Positions 3,060 to 12,783 of a DNA stretch of 64,000 bases are shown here, piece by piece. The position numbers and the translations under genes were made by a program. Within the stretch, counting starts at the first letter, position 1. Each line of letters opens with the position of its first letter. Origin of the DNA: Pirellulales bacterium (lineage in GTDB: Bacteria > Planctomycetota > Planctomycetia > Pirellulales > JAEUIK01); the NCBI GenBank assembly GCA_019694435.1, contig JAIBBZ010000008.1, positions 1 to 64,000 of the forward strand, given 5' to 3'. The notes beneath the pieces are model-generated. The model did not search any database and was not told where the DNA came from. It saw only the letters and a list, made by a program, of their open reading frames with translations.

Positions 3060-4295
3060 ATGACCGACGCCGCCGCAGAAGGTGCTCAACAGGACGAGGC
3101 GAGCGCCGCCGGCGAATCGACCGCAGGCGGCGCTCGATCGCTGCCCCGGGCGGTCAAGCTGCTGGGCTGGGCGAGCTTTGCCAACGACGTGGCGACCGAA
3201 GCGGTGTTTCCCTTGCTGCCGCTGTTCGTGACCGAGGTTCTCGGCGGCGGCAAGAAACAACTCGGCCTGATCGAAGGCGTCGCCGATAGTACGGCCAGCC
3301 TGCTCAAGCTGGCCAGCGGCGCATGGTCCGATCGGCTGCAACAACGCAAGGGGCTGATCGTCGTGGGCTATGTGCTGGCCGCGGCCGTGCGCCCGCTGCT
3401 TGGTCTGGCCCAGGCGCCTTGGCACGTGCTGGCTGTTCGCGGTGTCGACCGGGTCGGCAAGGGCCTGCGCACGGCGCCGCGCGACGCGCTGATCGCCGAC
3501 GTCACGCCCCCCGAACAACGCGGCGCGGCGTTTGGCTATCACCGGGCCATGGATCATCTTGGCGCGGCGCTCGGGCCGCTCTTGGCGACCGCCTTTCTCT
3601 GGTTCCGGCCGCAAGACTTGCGCACGCTGTTCTTGCTCACGGCGCTGCCGGGGCTGGCCGTGGTGGCGATCGTGGTTTTCGGCCTGCGAGAACCGGCGCG
3701 ACACGTGATCGCGACGCCGCCCGAGGCCGCGACGCGCGGGCCGCTGACGCGCAATTTTCTCGCGTACCTCGCCATCTTGTGCCTGTTCACGCTGGGCAAC
3801 TCGAGCGATGCGTTTCTCCTGGTCCGGGCCAGCGAACTCGGCGTGACCGCAGGCTGGCTGCCGGGGCTCTGGCTCACCTTCAGCCTGCTCAAGGGCGTCG
3901 GCAATTTGGGCATGGGGCCCGCGGTCCAGCGGATCGGTCCCCGGCGCTTGATTCGCGTCGGCTGGGTTTGCTATGCCCTGGTTTACGGGGGCTTTGCGCT
4001 GGCCACACAGTGGTGGCATGCCTGGCTGCTGTTTGCCGCGTATGCGATCTTCTACGCACTGACCGAGCCTGCGGAAAAGACGCTGGTCGCCAACCTGGTG
4101 GCGGCGCAGCAGCGCGGGCAGGCCTTTGGCTGGTTCAATTTCTCGTTGGGGGTCGCGGCGCTCCCGGCTAGCCTGTTGTTCGGCTGGCTCTACGACGAGT
4201 ATGGCGCCGCTGGCGCCTTTGGCTTTGGTGCGGGCGTGGCGATCTTCGCGGCCGTGCTGCTAGGCCTCGTACACGAATCGCGGGGGGATGCATGA
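3060..4295 (+). CDS. MFS transporter
   Basis: About 411 residues with about 12 hydrophobic segments, the normal size for a major facilitator. The conserved loop DRVGKGLRTAPRDALIADV, then PPEQRGAAFGYHRAMDH, is typical of a bacterial MFS group of unknown substrate. ATG 3060 is preferred because AGGAAA at 3048-3053 sits 6 bases before it; a GTG at 3054, overlapping the upstream TGA, is the alternative. The gene touches the cytochrome gene upstream and overlaps the next gene by ATGA, so the three are probably one transcript. The substrate is unknown; export of a small molecule or sugar is only a guess. Confidence 0.85.
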   Translation: MTDAAAEGAQQDEASAAGESTAGGARSLPRAVKLLGWASFANDVATEAVFPLLPLFVTEVLGGGKKQLGLIEGVADSTASLLKLASGAWSDRLQQRKGLIVVGYVLAAAVRPLLGLAQAPWHVLAVRGVDRVGKGLRTAPRDALIADVTPPEQRGAAFGYHRAMDHLGAALGPLLATAFLWFRPQDLRTLFLLTALPGLAVVAIVVFGLREPARHVIATPPEAATRGPLTRNFLAYLAILCLFTLGNSSDAFLLVRASELGVTAGWLPGLWLTFSLLKGVGNLGMGPAVQRIGPRRLIRVGWVCYALVYGGFALATQWWHAWLLFAAYAIFYALTEPAEKTLVANLVAAQQRGQAFGWFNFSLGVAALPASLLFGWLYDEYGAAGAFGFGAGVAIFAAVLLGLVHESRGDA

Positions 4296-4693
4296 CCGAT
4301 AACGAGTTTCTCGCCGGGTTCGTGAACTGCACGATCCCACGGGCAGAATGGTCGCACGAGGCCCATGTCCGTATGGCTTGGCTTTACCTGCGGCAAATGC
4401 CGTACGACGAAGCCGTTGCCTTGGTGCGCGCCGGTATCCAGCGCTACAACCACACCGTCGGTTCCGGCCAGGGCTATCACGAGACGGTGACCGTCGCCTT
4501 CGTGCGCCTGATCGATGCGCGCGTGAATCGCGATGCCAATGCAGGCGAGAAGTTCCCCGACTTCCTCGCGCGCTGCCCTGAGCTGGTCGATCGCGAGCGG
4601 CCGATCCTGCACGAATATTACCGGCCCGAAACGCTGGATTCGGACGCGGCCCGGGACAGCTTTGTCGAGCCGGACCGTTCTCCCCTACCCTGA
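4292..4693 (+). CDS. Small conserved hypothetical protein
   Basis: A 133-residue soluble protein with no signal peptide or membrane segment. It starts at an ATG that overlaps the MFS stop codon (ATGA at 4292-4295), so translation is probably coupled; a G-run at 4282-4287 may serve as ribosome binding site. Conserved-looking patches are WSHEAHVRMAWLYL near the N-terminus and YNHTVGSGQGYHETVT in the middle, rich in His, which could suggest a metal or ligand site. The look is of a conserved alpha-helical family of unknown function found in many bacteria. No function is assigned. Confidence 0.7.
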   Translation: MTDNEFLAGFVNCTIPRAEWSHEAHVRMAWLYLRQMPYDEAVALVRAGIQRYNHTVGSGQGYHETVTVAFVRLIDARVNRDANAGEKFPDFLARCPELVDRERPILHEYYRPETLDSDAARDSFVEPDRSPLP

Positions 4694-4728: not shown

Positions 4729-5850
4729 CTAGTTCAGATCGACGTCCGAGAGACGCTTCTGGAACACCGTCTCCGAGATCCGATTGCTGGCCCCGAAGCC
4801 GTTATGACCAACGCGGCAGGCCAGCTTCGGTTTGACCCACACGGCGTCGATCGTCGTGGGGACCAACGGCTGGGCACATTCCAACGCGTGCAATTCGGCG
4901 AAGATCGCTTCGCGGACCTTCGGAGCGATGTACTGGTTGCTGACGGTGCCGACCACCTGCAGCTTTTCCTTGACCACGGCGGCCAGCACCAGCGAGCTGA
5001 ATCCGCTGCTGCCTTGCGGCTTGTAGCCGACGACCAGGCAGTCGAGCTTGTGGCGACGTTTCGGCAGATTCTCAGGCGCATAAGGATCGACCGGTTCCTC
5101 CAGATCGCCTGAGTTGTCCTGGTTTTCGTCGTCGGCGTTCTTGCCCGTCATCTTCTCCATGGCCTCTTCCATGTTCATGTCCTCGTCGTTCGCGTTGTCG
5201 GTAAGGTCGACGACGGCATGAATGAGATTCGGCGCGGCCTCTTCCTCGGGGCCCAGTTCCCAGATCAGGTGATACGGAATTCCTCCGACGACGGCCGGGC
5301 CCATGATGGCCAGGCAGAGCGACCAGACGCCGATGCACACGCGCCGCGATGTGACCGGCAGTTCTACGAAGGTCTGTTTCCACACCTTGAAGGGCCTGAG
5401 CGCAATGTCGAGGAGCTTGAGATCCGAGTCTTCGGCGATCGCCGTCAGGAAAGCGACGAGGTGCACGACGCCGAAGGCGAGCGAGCCGATCACCCACTGA
5501 CCGATTGCCCAATAGGCCCGCGACCAGCTACCCAGGGGAAACAGGAAGCGAGCCCCGATGCTCACAGCCGTGACGACGACCAGGCCGGCCAGCAGCGTCC
5601 AGACCCAGAGCGGAACGCGGCGCGGGTCCCAGGGGTTGGTCGACGCCTGGACCGGCGCTTCTTGCGGATCGACTTCGATGCAAAAGTTGAACTTCGGAAA
5701 CCAGCCGCACTTCAAGCACCACTCGGCCTGCTCTCCCAACCCCGGCGCGGAGCAATGTGGGCACAGGTTCTCCTCGACGAGCATGCCCGCTTCTTCGCCG
5801 CCCAACGGCTGGTCGTCCACAAGCAATTCGTCAGGTAAAGAGGTTGCCAT
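4729..5850 (-). CDS. Zinc-ribbon membrane protein with DNA-ligase-like OB fold
   Basis: A 373-residue protein starting at ATG 5850 (MATSLPDEL); longer in-frame starts upstream add only an unlikely basic tail. Cys30, Cys33, Cys45 and Cys48 form a zinc ribbon (CPHC...CLKC). Three hydrophobic segments follow at about 83-108, 115-145 and 173-200, then a very acidic linker (about 215-265). The last 100 residues (CLVVGYKPQGSSGFSSLVLA, KLQVVGTVS, VWVKPKLACRV, then R-x5-F-x11) match the order and spacing of the C-terminal OB domain of ATP-dependent DNA ligases of the LigD type. There is no nucleotidyltransferase domain and no KxDG lysine, so it is not a ligase. The role of an OB fold on a membrane protein is unknown. 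Gene call confident; OB-fold assignment moderately so. Confidence 0.75.
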   Translation of the reverse strand: MATSLPDELLVDDQPLGGEEAGMLVEENLCPHCSAPGLGEQAEWCLKCGWFPKFNFCIEVDPQEAPVQASTNPWDPRRVPLWVWTLLAGLVVVTAVSIGARFLFPLGSWSRAYWAIGQWVIGSLAFGVVHLVAFLTAIAEDSDLKLLDIALRPFKVWKQTFVELPVTSRRVCIGVWSLCLAIMGPAVVGGIPYHLIWELGPEEEAAPNLIHAVVDLTDNANDEDMNMEEAMEKMTGKNADDENQDNSGDLEEPVDPYAPENLPKRRHKLDCLVVGYKPQGSSGFSSLVLAAVVKEKLQVVGTVSNQYIAPKVREAIFAELHALECAQPLVPTTIDAVWVKPKLACRVGHNGFGASNRISETVFQKRLSDVDLN

Positions 5851-7693: not shown

Positions 7694-7765
7694 GGCGCCG
7701 TAGCCAAGAGGCTAAGGCAGCGGATTGCAAATCCGCCATCGTGGGTTCGACTCCCACCGGCGCCT
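7694..7765 (+). tRNA. tRNA-Cys (anticodon GCA)
   Basis: The 7-bp acceptor stem GGCGCCG/CGGCGCC, the D arm, the anticodon stem GCGGA/TCCGC with loop TTGCAAA (anticodon GCA), and the T arm GTGGG-TTCGACT-CCCAC all pair. The discriminator base is T (U73), as expected for Cys. CCA is not encoded. Confidence 0.95.
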
Positions 7766-7977
7766 CTTTCTTCTAAAGCATGGTCTGCAAATTGGTTGCG
7801 ACCGGCTTGGTGTGCAGTACGACTCGGCGCGCCGTGGCGAGCGCCAGTCGAAGGAAACGGTCACGCTCACGCGTCTAGCCGGTCTGCCGCCTGTGTGTCA
7901 GGCTCGCCGGTTCAATCGCTTGCAAGCCGGCCTCTGCGGCGAGGCGATGCACCGGAACCTGCCACACCGGCTTTGCG

Positions 7978-9559: not shown

Positions 9560-11335
9560 TCAGCTGTCCCGGTGGCGGCTGGGTTGGGATGATCGGCGGA
9601 ATCGGTTGCCCAAGAGTGGCAACAGCACCATCGCCGATGCAGCCAGCACGAGACTCGACGGCTCGGGCACGCCAACCGCGTGGACACGGAATTGTCCAAA
9701 GACTTCCGGGGAGGTGATGACGCCCTGCGTGTCGATGCCATACGTCGTCACCAGCAGGTCCTGTGTGGTCGCATCGATCTCGAACTCGGTCCAGCCCCAG
9801 GAATGACCGATGTTCCAAGTGCCGGACAATAACTCCGCGCTGATCAACGGCGAGTCGGTCAGGCCAAACGGTGAAACGTCGTGGTAGTTGAAGATGCTCA
9901 GCGAGGGCAGCAACTCGTCGAGCAGGGAGTTGAAAAAGGCGTCCTTGTCGCGGACCGGCAGCGTGAGGTACTCGTCATATTGCTCCTGCGAGACCAGGCC
10001 CAAGGCGAGCGCCTCCTGCATCGCCTGGAACCCACCCGGCGTCGGGCCATACAGGGCCCCGGTGCTGATTTCCCACGCGGCCAGCGGCCGGTCAGGTCCC
10101 GTCGCGGTGCGTCGATAAGTCAGGTCGTTGACGACCGTGTTGTGGATGTCGGCCGAAATGAAAACGACGTTTTCGATGTCATGGTCGTCGATGAACTTCA
10201 GAATCTCGGTGCGCTCGGCCTCGTAGCCTTCAAACCGGTCCGAGGGATCAAACGGGCCCAGGTACTGAATCGGCTCGGGCACGAGGATGAACTTCCAAGT
10301 GACGTCAGCGTTTTGGGCGGCCAGCAGATCGGTCTTGAGCGTGTCGATCTGCGCGCGACCGAGCATCGTCCGGGCCGGGTTGAAGCTGTCGTTGATGTAG
10401 CCCTGCAGATTGAACAGATCGGGCTCGCCCAAAGGCGAGTCGCGAAACGAGCGCGCATCGAGCATGAACGTCACCGCATCTTGGCCGAATTGCCGCGTGC
10501 GATACAGATTGCGCTCGCCGGCGGTGCGTGGGTCGCCCGTCGCGCCGTAAAAGGTGTCCGCAATCGGGTTGTATTCCTGAAAGGCCCTCAGACCGTTGTC
10601 GAACAAGGCGGTGTCGTTGATATAGCTGCCGGTTTGCTGAAACCGGGTGTCGGTCGACGGATTCGCGCCGCCCGAAAAATCGTTGCGCACCTCGTGGTCG
10701 TCGATCGTGGCATACCACGAAGTCGACTCCCGGAGGTTCATCATCGCGGGATTGTCATAGACCTCGGCTTGCTTGTTGCGAAACTGGGCCAGCGACGAAG
10801 CCGCCCCGCCGGCCGGCGACGTCAAGTCGGCATATGCCGTATCGCCCAAGGCCACGAAGAAGTCCAAATCGCGGCTCGGAGCATTGGTCAGCGCGAGATA
10901 GTCGACATTGCCACCGAACCAGTCGCCCGAGACGCCAAACCGCAGGCCCGTTTGGGTGCCGGGGGCGGCCAAGGTGCGGAACTGCCCGCTGGACGTCACG
11001 CCGGCGGCGTTGCGGGCGCGATAGTAATACTGCGTGTCGGCCGTCAGCCCGGTGACGGATGACTTGATGGGGATCGCCGCGTTGGCGACGTTCACCTGGT
11101 TGCTGACCACGACATTCGTGAATCCTGGATCGGTCGCCACGTCGAAGCGGACCTGCCCGGTGACCGTGCTGCGCGTCCAAAGGATCGACGAATCGACCGT
11201 GGTATCGCCGGCAGCGACTCCTTGGGGGAGAGATTGCGCTCCCGCAGGAGCAGCCGCCAGCAGCGGCAACAGCCCTCCGAGCGTGGCAAGGGCGAGCCGA
11301 AGGCTGGGCAGCCGGCGAACGAGCGTGAAGATCAT
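9560..11335 (-). CDS. PhoD-like alkaline phosphatase with PEP-CTERM tail
   Basis: 591 residues from ATG 11335 (a TTG seven codons upstream is possible). A signal peptide (LALATLGGLLPLLAAAPAGAQ) is followed by a fibronectin-like N-terminal domain and a PhoD-type metallophosphoesterase domain with its metal ligands: GDTAYAD, ATIDDHEVRNDF and ISADIHN. These enzymes release phosphate from phosphodiesters and monoesters outside the cell, usually with Ca/Fe. The C-terminus VPEPSSLVLAASAMVLLPLL followed by RFRR is a PEP-CTERM sorting signal, so the enzyme is probably processed by an exosortase and attached to the envelope or matrix. No exosortase gene is in this window. Confidence 0.88.
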   Translation of the reverse strand: MIFTLVRRLPSLRLALATLGGLLPLLAAAPAGAQSLPQGVAAGDTTVDSSILWTRSTVTGQVRFDVATDPGFTNVVVSNQVNVANAAIPIKSSVTGLTADTQYYYRARNAAGVTSSGQFRTLAAPGTQTGLRFGVSGDWFGGNVDYLALTNAPSRDLDFFVALGDTAYADLTSPAGGAASSLAQFRNKQAEVYDNPAMMNLRESTSWYATIDDHEVRNDFSGGANPSTDTRFQQTGSYINDTALFDNGLRAFQEYNPIADTFYGATGDPRTAGERNLYRTRQFGQDAVTFMLDARSFRDSPLGEPDLFNLQGYINDSFNPARTMLGRAQIDTLKTDLLAAQNADVTWKFILVPEPIQYLGPFDPSDRFEGYEAERTEILKFIDDHDIENVVFISADIHNTVVNDLTYRRTATGPDRPLAAWEISTGALYGPTPGGFQAMQEALALGLVSQEQYDEYLTLPVRDKDAFFNSLLDELLPSLSIFNYHDVSPFGLTDSPLISAELLSGTWNIGHSWGWTEFEIDATTQDLLVTTYGIDTQGVITSPEVFGQFRVHAVGVPEPSSLVLAASAMVLLPLLGNRFRRSSQPSRHRDS

Positions 11336-11736
11336 AAGGGCAGTAGCTGCGTCCAATTCGCGTGGGGCGGGTGGTCAGGCGGGAAGAATTCGGACCAGTG
11401 TAGCTGCCCACGCCGGGGGCGTCGCGAAACGGGCGGCGTCAGCGCCATGAATGAACGGTTTTTAACGAAGGCCTAGTGGCGAATGGTGGGCAGACCTGCG
11501 GGCCAGCGCACGCTTGGCGTGAACAAGTCGGCCACGGCCCAGTGCTGAGCACCGAGGAGCCTTGGAGGAAGGCATCGCACTTTGGCACCGGCTGTCGCGA
11601 TTCCCAAGCATCGTGCTGTGCAATGCTGCGACAAATCGTAACGAAGATAGCGGACTTTCCCTGATAACTGCGGTCCACCTCGCCGGGTACCGTACATGGG
11701 CACTGGGGGGGCGTGCACTCAAGTTGGAGGTGTCGC
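11336..11736. other. Divergent intergenic region
   Basis: 401 bases between the phosphatase (minus strand) and the PEP-CTERM gene (plus strand). Apart from the ribosome binding site at its right end (GGAGG, 11726-11730) nothing specific was recognised. Confidence 0.5.
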
Positions 11737-12783
11737 ATGCGGTACCGTAGTTGTGGGTTCTTCGTTCTCGCCATCGTTGCGTGCCTGGCATCGCGCGCGA
11801 CGGCATCGCAGATGTTCGGCAGTCTGAGCAACTTCGACGTGATCAATGACACGGGCGAGGTTTGCTGAGGGTTCGAGATCGAATTGGAAGGAGTCAATTC
11901 GGCCGACATTGCCTTTACGTTCGGTAACCCGTACATCCGTTACGGCGATCCGACGCTTGTGCCGACGGGCACCGGTACCATCGTTCGCTACGCCAGCGCC
12001 TTCGATGGAACCAATTGGCAGACGGGCACGCCGATTCCGTCGGGCCCCTTCCCTACGGGAGGCCACGCGTGCTTCTATCCTGCGTATGGCGGCGATCCGA
12101 ATTATGAAACGCTCGGCGGCGAACATTTCGGCATCGCGATCAATGGCAACCCGACGAACACCATCTATCGATGGCTGTTGGGCGACAACTCGGGCAACCT
12201 GATTCCGGCCGGCTCGACGGTGAAGATTCCCGCGCCGATGTGGAACGTCGCACCGCCGGCCAATCCCGCGGCGCCTGCTGCGGTTCAGGCGGTGCTGCCG
12301 GCATTGCCGATCGAGAATCCTGGCGATCTGTTCGGCGAGGCGATCTGGGTGAAGGTGTTCGTGACCGAGGCCCCCGAGCCGGCCGAACTCGATCACCTGG
12401 TGCCGGGCGATCCACGCGTGCCCGATGGCGAGGACGCCGGTGAAACGGAAGTCGAATGGCAGCTCTTGCAGGCGGGCAAAGACGGCCTGGACGAAGTCGA
12501 CAGCGGCGAGAACGATCTGGCCGAAGACTCGAACTCGATCACGCGGCGGTACGAGTTCTATGCCTACTTGGGCCCCTATGACGAGGAAGGCGAGGCCACG
12601 CAAGAAGACCCCGGCGCCGATCTGGAATTCGTCGGCGACTTCTTGGGTGCACAGAACGCGGCTTTGAACCTCGAAGCCTTCATCGTGCCCGAACCCGCGA
12701 CGATGACGCTCTTGGCGACGGGGTTGGGTTGCCTGGTCGCTTGTCGCGTCCGTACCCGGCGGCATACGAAAAAGGTTCGCTAG
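11737..12783 (+). pseudogene. PEP-CTERM protein gene interrupted by in-frame TGA
   Basis: ATG 11737 has an ideal GGAGG 6 bases upstream and opens a signal peptide (CGFFVLAIVACLASRATAS). Forty-three codons later a TGA (11866-11868) interrupts the frame; beyond it the same frame continues uninterrupted to 12783. The sequences on both sides fit together (NDTGEVC-stop-GFEIELEGVNSADIAFTFG), as in a secreted planctomycete/Verrucomicrobia-like family. The C-terminus VPEPATMTLLATGLGCLV plus RTRR is a PEP-CTERM signal. It would be a 348-residue secreted protein if the stop were read through. Most likely a recent nonsense mutation or a sequencing error; an intact gene starting downstream would lack its signal peptide. 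Confidence 0.7.

Follow-up and report, generated by a model that had tools for sequence, protein, structure and literature searches.

Membrane-attached OB folds are already known from the NfeD family, whose members are membrane proteins with a C-terminal OB fold, and this family sets a precedent for a non-ligase OB domain that serves on a membrane protein. The ligase domain of LigD (M. tuberculosis structures 1VS0, 6NHX and 6NHZ) is part of a soluble repair enzyme in which the OB fold is accompanied by a catalytic domain, with motifs V and VI present. Its OB domain is thought to stabilise the ATP gamma-phosphate in the closed state and to touch the phosphates of the DNA backbone in the open state (PMC8656161). 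Besides LigD, planctomycete families other than the one studied here possess Ku-linked mini-ligases of about 300 amino acids, which are LigC-like in size and consist of a nucleotidyltransferase (NTase) and an OB domain.

In the window, by which we mean the whole stretch of 64,000 nucleotides analysed (contig JAIBBZ010000008.1 of a Pirellulales bacterium), we characterised a gene whose product combines a ligase-type OB domain with a zinc ribbon and predicted membrane helices. We estimate at roughly 0.5 the probability that this captured OB domain forms a non-catalytic membrane module, likely a protein-binding adaptor and possibly linked to protein quality control. The gene and its parts are as follows.

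4729..5850, minus strand: whole gene, 373 aa, with an ATG start and the stop codon at 4729-4731; homologues align end to end
5701..5769, minus strand: zinc ribbon, residues 28-50 (C30, C33, C45, C48), from conservation in 52 homologues
5542..5610, minus strand: predicted membrane helix 1, residues 81-103, from the AlphaFold model, hydropathy and conservation
5431..5526, minus strand: predicted membrane helix 2, residues 109-140, from the model, hydropathy and conservation
5365..5409, minus strand: loop segment, residues 148-162, mainly helical in the model, from the model and conservation
5287..5349, minus strand: predicted membrane helix 3, residues 168-188, from the model, hydropathy and conservation
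5062..5274, minus strand: acidic linker with short helices, residues 193-263, from net charge and the model
4732..5061, minus strand: ligase-type OB domain, residues 264-373, from PF04679, profile matches to PDB structures, and the OB-only model with Foldseek

The ATG at position 5850 agrees with the homologues, which we read as beginning at most about 60 residues ahead of the ribbon. The ribbon is predicted from a CxxC-x(n)-CxxC pattern with the spacing C30-x2-C33-x11-C45-x2-C48, its cysteines are kept in 98-100% of 52 homologues, and Pfam returns PF12773 weakly (E=0.18). The full-length AlphaFold2 model, built without templates from a 30-member family alignment, contains three long helices and, at the C terminus, a barrel predicted with confidence, with a pLDDT of about 90-98 for the three predicted hydrophobic helices (residues 81-103, 109-140 and 168-188) and low values at residues 238-251 in the linker. 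Conserved residues mark membrane helix 1 (P80, W82, R101) and the loop segment (P153, W157), and the mean net charge of the linker (residues 190-263) is about -5 in the bacterium's own order and about -10 in a second order of the same class. The first-pass annotation had already read a zinc ribbon, three membrane helices and the lack of a ligase catalytic domain from this gene, and these readings hold: Pfam finds no match to the DNA_ligase_A_M/nucleotidyltransferase domain with its catalytic lysine (PF01068) in the 373-aa protein, whose N-terminal half consists of ribbon and helices rather than a nucleotidyltransferase.

The C-terminal domain almost certainly shares its ancestry with the OB domains that ATP-dependent DNA ligases carry. 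Residues 282-365 of the full protein match PF04679 with 26.3 bits (E=1e-5), just below the cut-off of 27.5 bits, and the isolated C terminus scores 29.6-29.8 bits, above it; the NCBIfam model TIGR02779 (NHEJ ligase domain) matches residues 264-366 (E=4.4e-8). Against the solved structures in the PDB, a sequence profile of the OB domain matched LigD at 2.3e-8, while a single-sequence phmmer search gave no matches, and hhalign against planctomycete LigD OB domains gave a probability of 98.9 (E 3.6e-17, 104 columns). The full-length model had LigD as its top Foldseek match (2.1e-6), and with an OB-only AlphaFold model (41 sequences, no templates, pLDDT 93.7) all 18 PDB matches at E<=0.001 were DNA ligases, again with LigD on top at a query-normalised TM of 0.79 (0.73-0.79 over the three M. 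tuberculosis structures, at 15-18% identity). Ligase OB homology of the last 100 or so residues had initially been suggested by the motifs CLVVGY, KLQVVGTVS, VWVKPKLACRV and R...F, all of which are present, and the fold comparison that had been recommended as a check bears it out. In the window genome this gene is the sole PF04679 match, and Ku (PF02735) was not found in that assembly (97.9% complete, 90 contigs).

The protein has in common with NfeD that an OB fold is carried on membrane helices, and its OB domain might likewise bind a protein partner. The two differ in OB lineage and in the zinc ribbon of the protein described here; no match to NfeD (PF01957) was obtained for the window protein at E<=1, and no NfeD structure was recognised among the best 50 Foldseek matches listed for the OB-only model. 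The earlier impression of a new arrangement thus has to be narrowed: a membrane-tied OB fold as such is familiar from NfeD, whereas a ligase-type OB domain on a membrane zinc-ribbon protein appears to be undescribed, a provisional status, as the search that found no description of the architecture covered open-licence papers.

A tree of 91 OB domains, its grouping blurred by long branches, separated the OB domains of the membrane proteins (hereafter orphan OBs) and of the mini-ligases from LigD OBs by a 100/98 branch. One standalone ligase, L129, first classed with the mini-ligases, grouped with LigD. In a second tree, from which five long-branch or odd rows were omitted, the orphans (86, not starred), the mini-ligases (94) and the LigDs (100) each formed one side of a branch; because the OB alignment is short, the orphan branch can be taken as no more than suggestive. 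By these trees the orphan OB appears to group with the Ku-linked mini-ligases of about 300 aa, whose OB is the nearest one found, rather than with LigD, which refines the original description of a LigD-type OB. Mini-ligases and orphans also have the C271/C345 positions in common, and both lack the canonical R-x-D-K ending. Unlike the orphans, the mini-ligases possess a nucleotidyltransferase domain (PF01068 next to PF04679 in those tested), the motif-V lysines, a G-R-V-G-S-G loop and a Ku neighbour, which adjoined them where tested and was confirmed by Pfam in three; they are without the zinc ribbon and the membrane helices that the orphans have. The ligases of this size noted in other planctomycete families (L100, L101, L122-L128, L130 and L131), several of which adjoin Ku, have an OB domain without the usual R-x-D-K ending.

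The motif-V lysines and positions R302, G304, G307, T353 and R359, conserved at 78-100% in both ligase groups, are not conserved in the orphans, which also lack the ligase-conserved G-R-V-G-T/S-G loop and the motif-VI region. Of the two ligase hallmarks, the motif-V lysines and the motif-VI R-x-D-K, the orphan has neither, and R-x-D-K is missing in the mini-ligases too. From these lost residues we infer that ligase function has been lost. The orphan OBs kept G275, L297, G301, P328, W338 and P341, which look like core or turn residues and suggest that the barrel core is retained. Few apparently exposed OB positions are strongly conserved, R346 being a candidate (91%, own order).

A search of the own order gave matches in 35 of 397 genomes from 20 genera, a number that includes the window and genome G148; the G148 match is a LigD, and with it and the window set aside 33 genomes of the order share the full-length architecture, with full-length matches 26-38% identical to the window protein. 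The second order has the architecture in at least 16 genomes; a profile search there gave 15 matches over nearly the full length and another four that are more divergent. In L132 and L133, ribbon and OB are kept and the membrane part is apparently a single helix, as judged from their sequences alone. One near-copy of the L114 gene, L117 (G368), ends a frame of >2000 codons, is likely an assembly chimera and was kept out of the tree. Family members are single copy per genome in nearly all cases, C30, C33, C48, G275, P328, W338 and P341 are identical in all 52 aligned members, and dN/dS was 0.057-0.25 in nine pairs, the OB part included, which indicates that the family is under purifying selection. 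The finding is independent of any single assembly and concerns a family, not a fusion accident. A back-translation search of genome contigs returned no relatives; the search across genomes found them. The ribbon-helix half without OB was not found in 294 genomes, bar two weak matches, of which one is clearly another protein and the other sits in a short broken frame; G670 and L135 appear to be different ribbon/TM proteins that lack an OB.

Among 41 loci (40 relatives and the window), an HtrA-type protease gene is divergent from the gene at 18, and at 16 aat lies directly downstream too (identities by Pfam), across a gap of 19-263 bp. The 16 loci with both neighbours represent four families of the own order, and the 2 HtrA-only loci a fifth; within the same sample neither the window locus nor the second order shows this synteny, and several own-order families lack it too. 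In the window genome contig 21 carries aat, HtrA and dnaG as a group, while the orphan-OB gene is on contig 8, a split that fits relocation of the orphan-OB gene, the reverse history also being possible. On contig 21 a gene with HTTM and VKGC-lumenal domains (L143:8452-10719) is situated between aat and HtrA, in the slot held by the orphan-OB gene in relatives.

Our preferred reading starts from an OB domain of the type seen in the planctomycete Ku-linked mini-ligases, which would have been joined to a zinc-ribbon, three-helix membrane protein before the split of the two orders examined and would then have lost its ligase-specific residues. The N-terminal half would hold the OB at the membrane as a non-catalytic binding module, and the OB would most likely bind a protein partner, making the protein an adaptor that may be tied to the flanking quality-control genes (HtrA-type protease and Aat transferase). 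As a mechanism, a membrane-anchored adaptor with a protein-binding OB is tentative, at somewhat less than even odds, with protein slightly favoured over nucleic acid as the ligand. Counting against it are the patchy distribution of the HtrA/aat synteny, the small number of strongly conserved OB positions that seem exposed, and the mildly positive OB charge, which is compatible with nucleic acid. The narrower version, in which the ligase OB was recruited as an adaptor for N-degron/HtrA protein quality control, we regard as unlikely; if true, a DNA-repair domain would have become a component of proteostasis. The HtrA/aat neighbourhood offers a testable starting point.

Instead of a protein, the OB might contact DNA or RNA non-specifically, with help from the ribbon, and serve as a membrane tether for the nucleoid, for tRNA or for a site of repair. 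Such a role is conceivable, though rather doubtful. The neighbouring Aat uses aminoacyl-tRNA, and in one own-order family dnaG and rpoD lie beyond HtrA; dnaG, however, remains beside HtrA and aat where the orphan-OB gene sits elsewhere. Ligase OB domains contact the DNA phosphate backbone (PMC8656161), yet the G-R-V-G-T/S-G loop and the L-R region conserved in ligases are lost, so that nucleic-acid binding is possible while the kept residues lend it no support. The net charge of +6 of the window OB would suit such binding, whereas the orphan mean of +2.3 falls short of the LigD mean of +4.7; because the mini-ligases average -0.4, below the orphans, charge is weak evidence either way.

A relay of signals across the membrane, in which three helices (or one) would separate a ribbon on the inner side from an OB domain on the outer side, close to where an HtrA-type protease meets its substrates, seems improbable to us. 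The odd helix number, the single-helix variant suggested for L132/L133, the K+R content of loop 2, richest of the near-membrane segments counted, and the divergent HtrA neighbour at 18 loci all agree with it. The charge bias is weak, however, with the single-helix variants showing the opposite (acidic before and RR after the helix), and the link to HtrA is not universal. That we are dealing with chance similarity, an artefact or a decaying ligase remnant is hardly credible: the full-length window protein does score slightly below the PF04679 cut-off, but independent profile, fold and tree evidence and the intact frames under purifying selection in many genera speak against it, and the homologues refute it unless all were mis-assembled alike.

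On the capture reading, the family is a clean case of an accessory domain that an enzyme's catalytic part no longer accompanies and that has been conserved on a membrane protein, and the candidate source, the Ku-linked mini-ligases, is still extant in the phylum. Part of a DNA-repair ligase that has lost the ligase residues is kept in this form across many genera, and since Pfam labels some members as ligase C-terminal regions, the family may be miscounted as DNA-repair ligases.

Elsewhere in the window, a 133-aa ORF (4292-4693, plus strand) without a Pfam match converges on the orphan-OB gene, and a tRNA-Cys gene (7694-7766) lies a short distance downstream of a GDSL-lipase-like gene. Two proteins encoded at 9560-11356 and 11884-12783 end in VPEP-type tails at the C terminus, similar in appearance to sorting signals.
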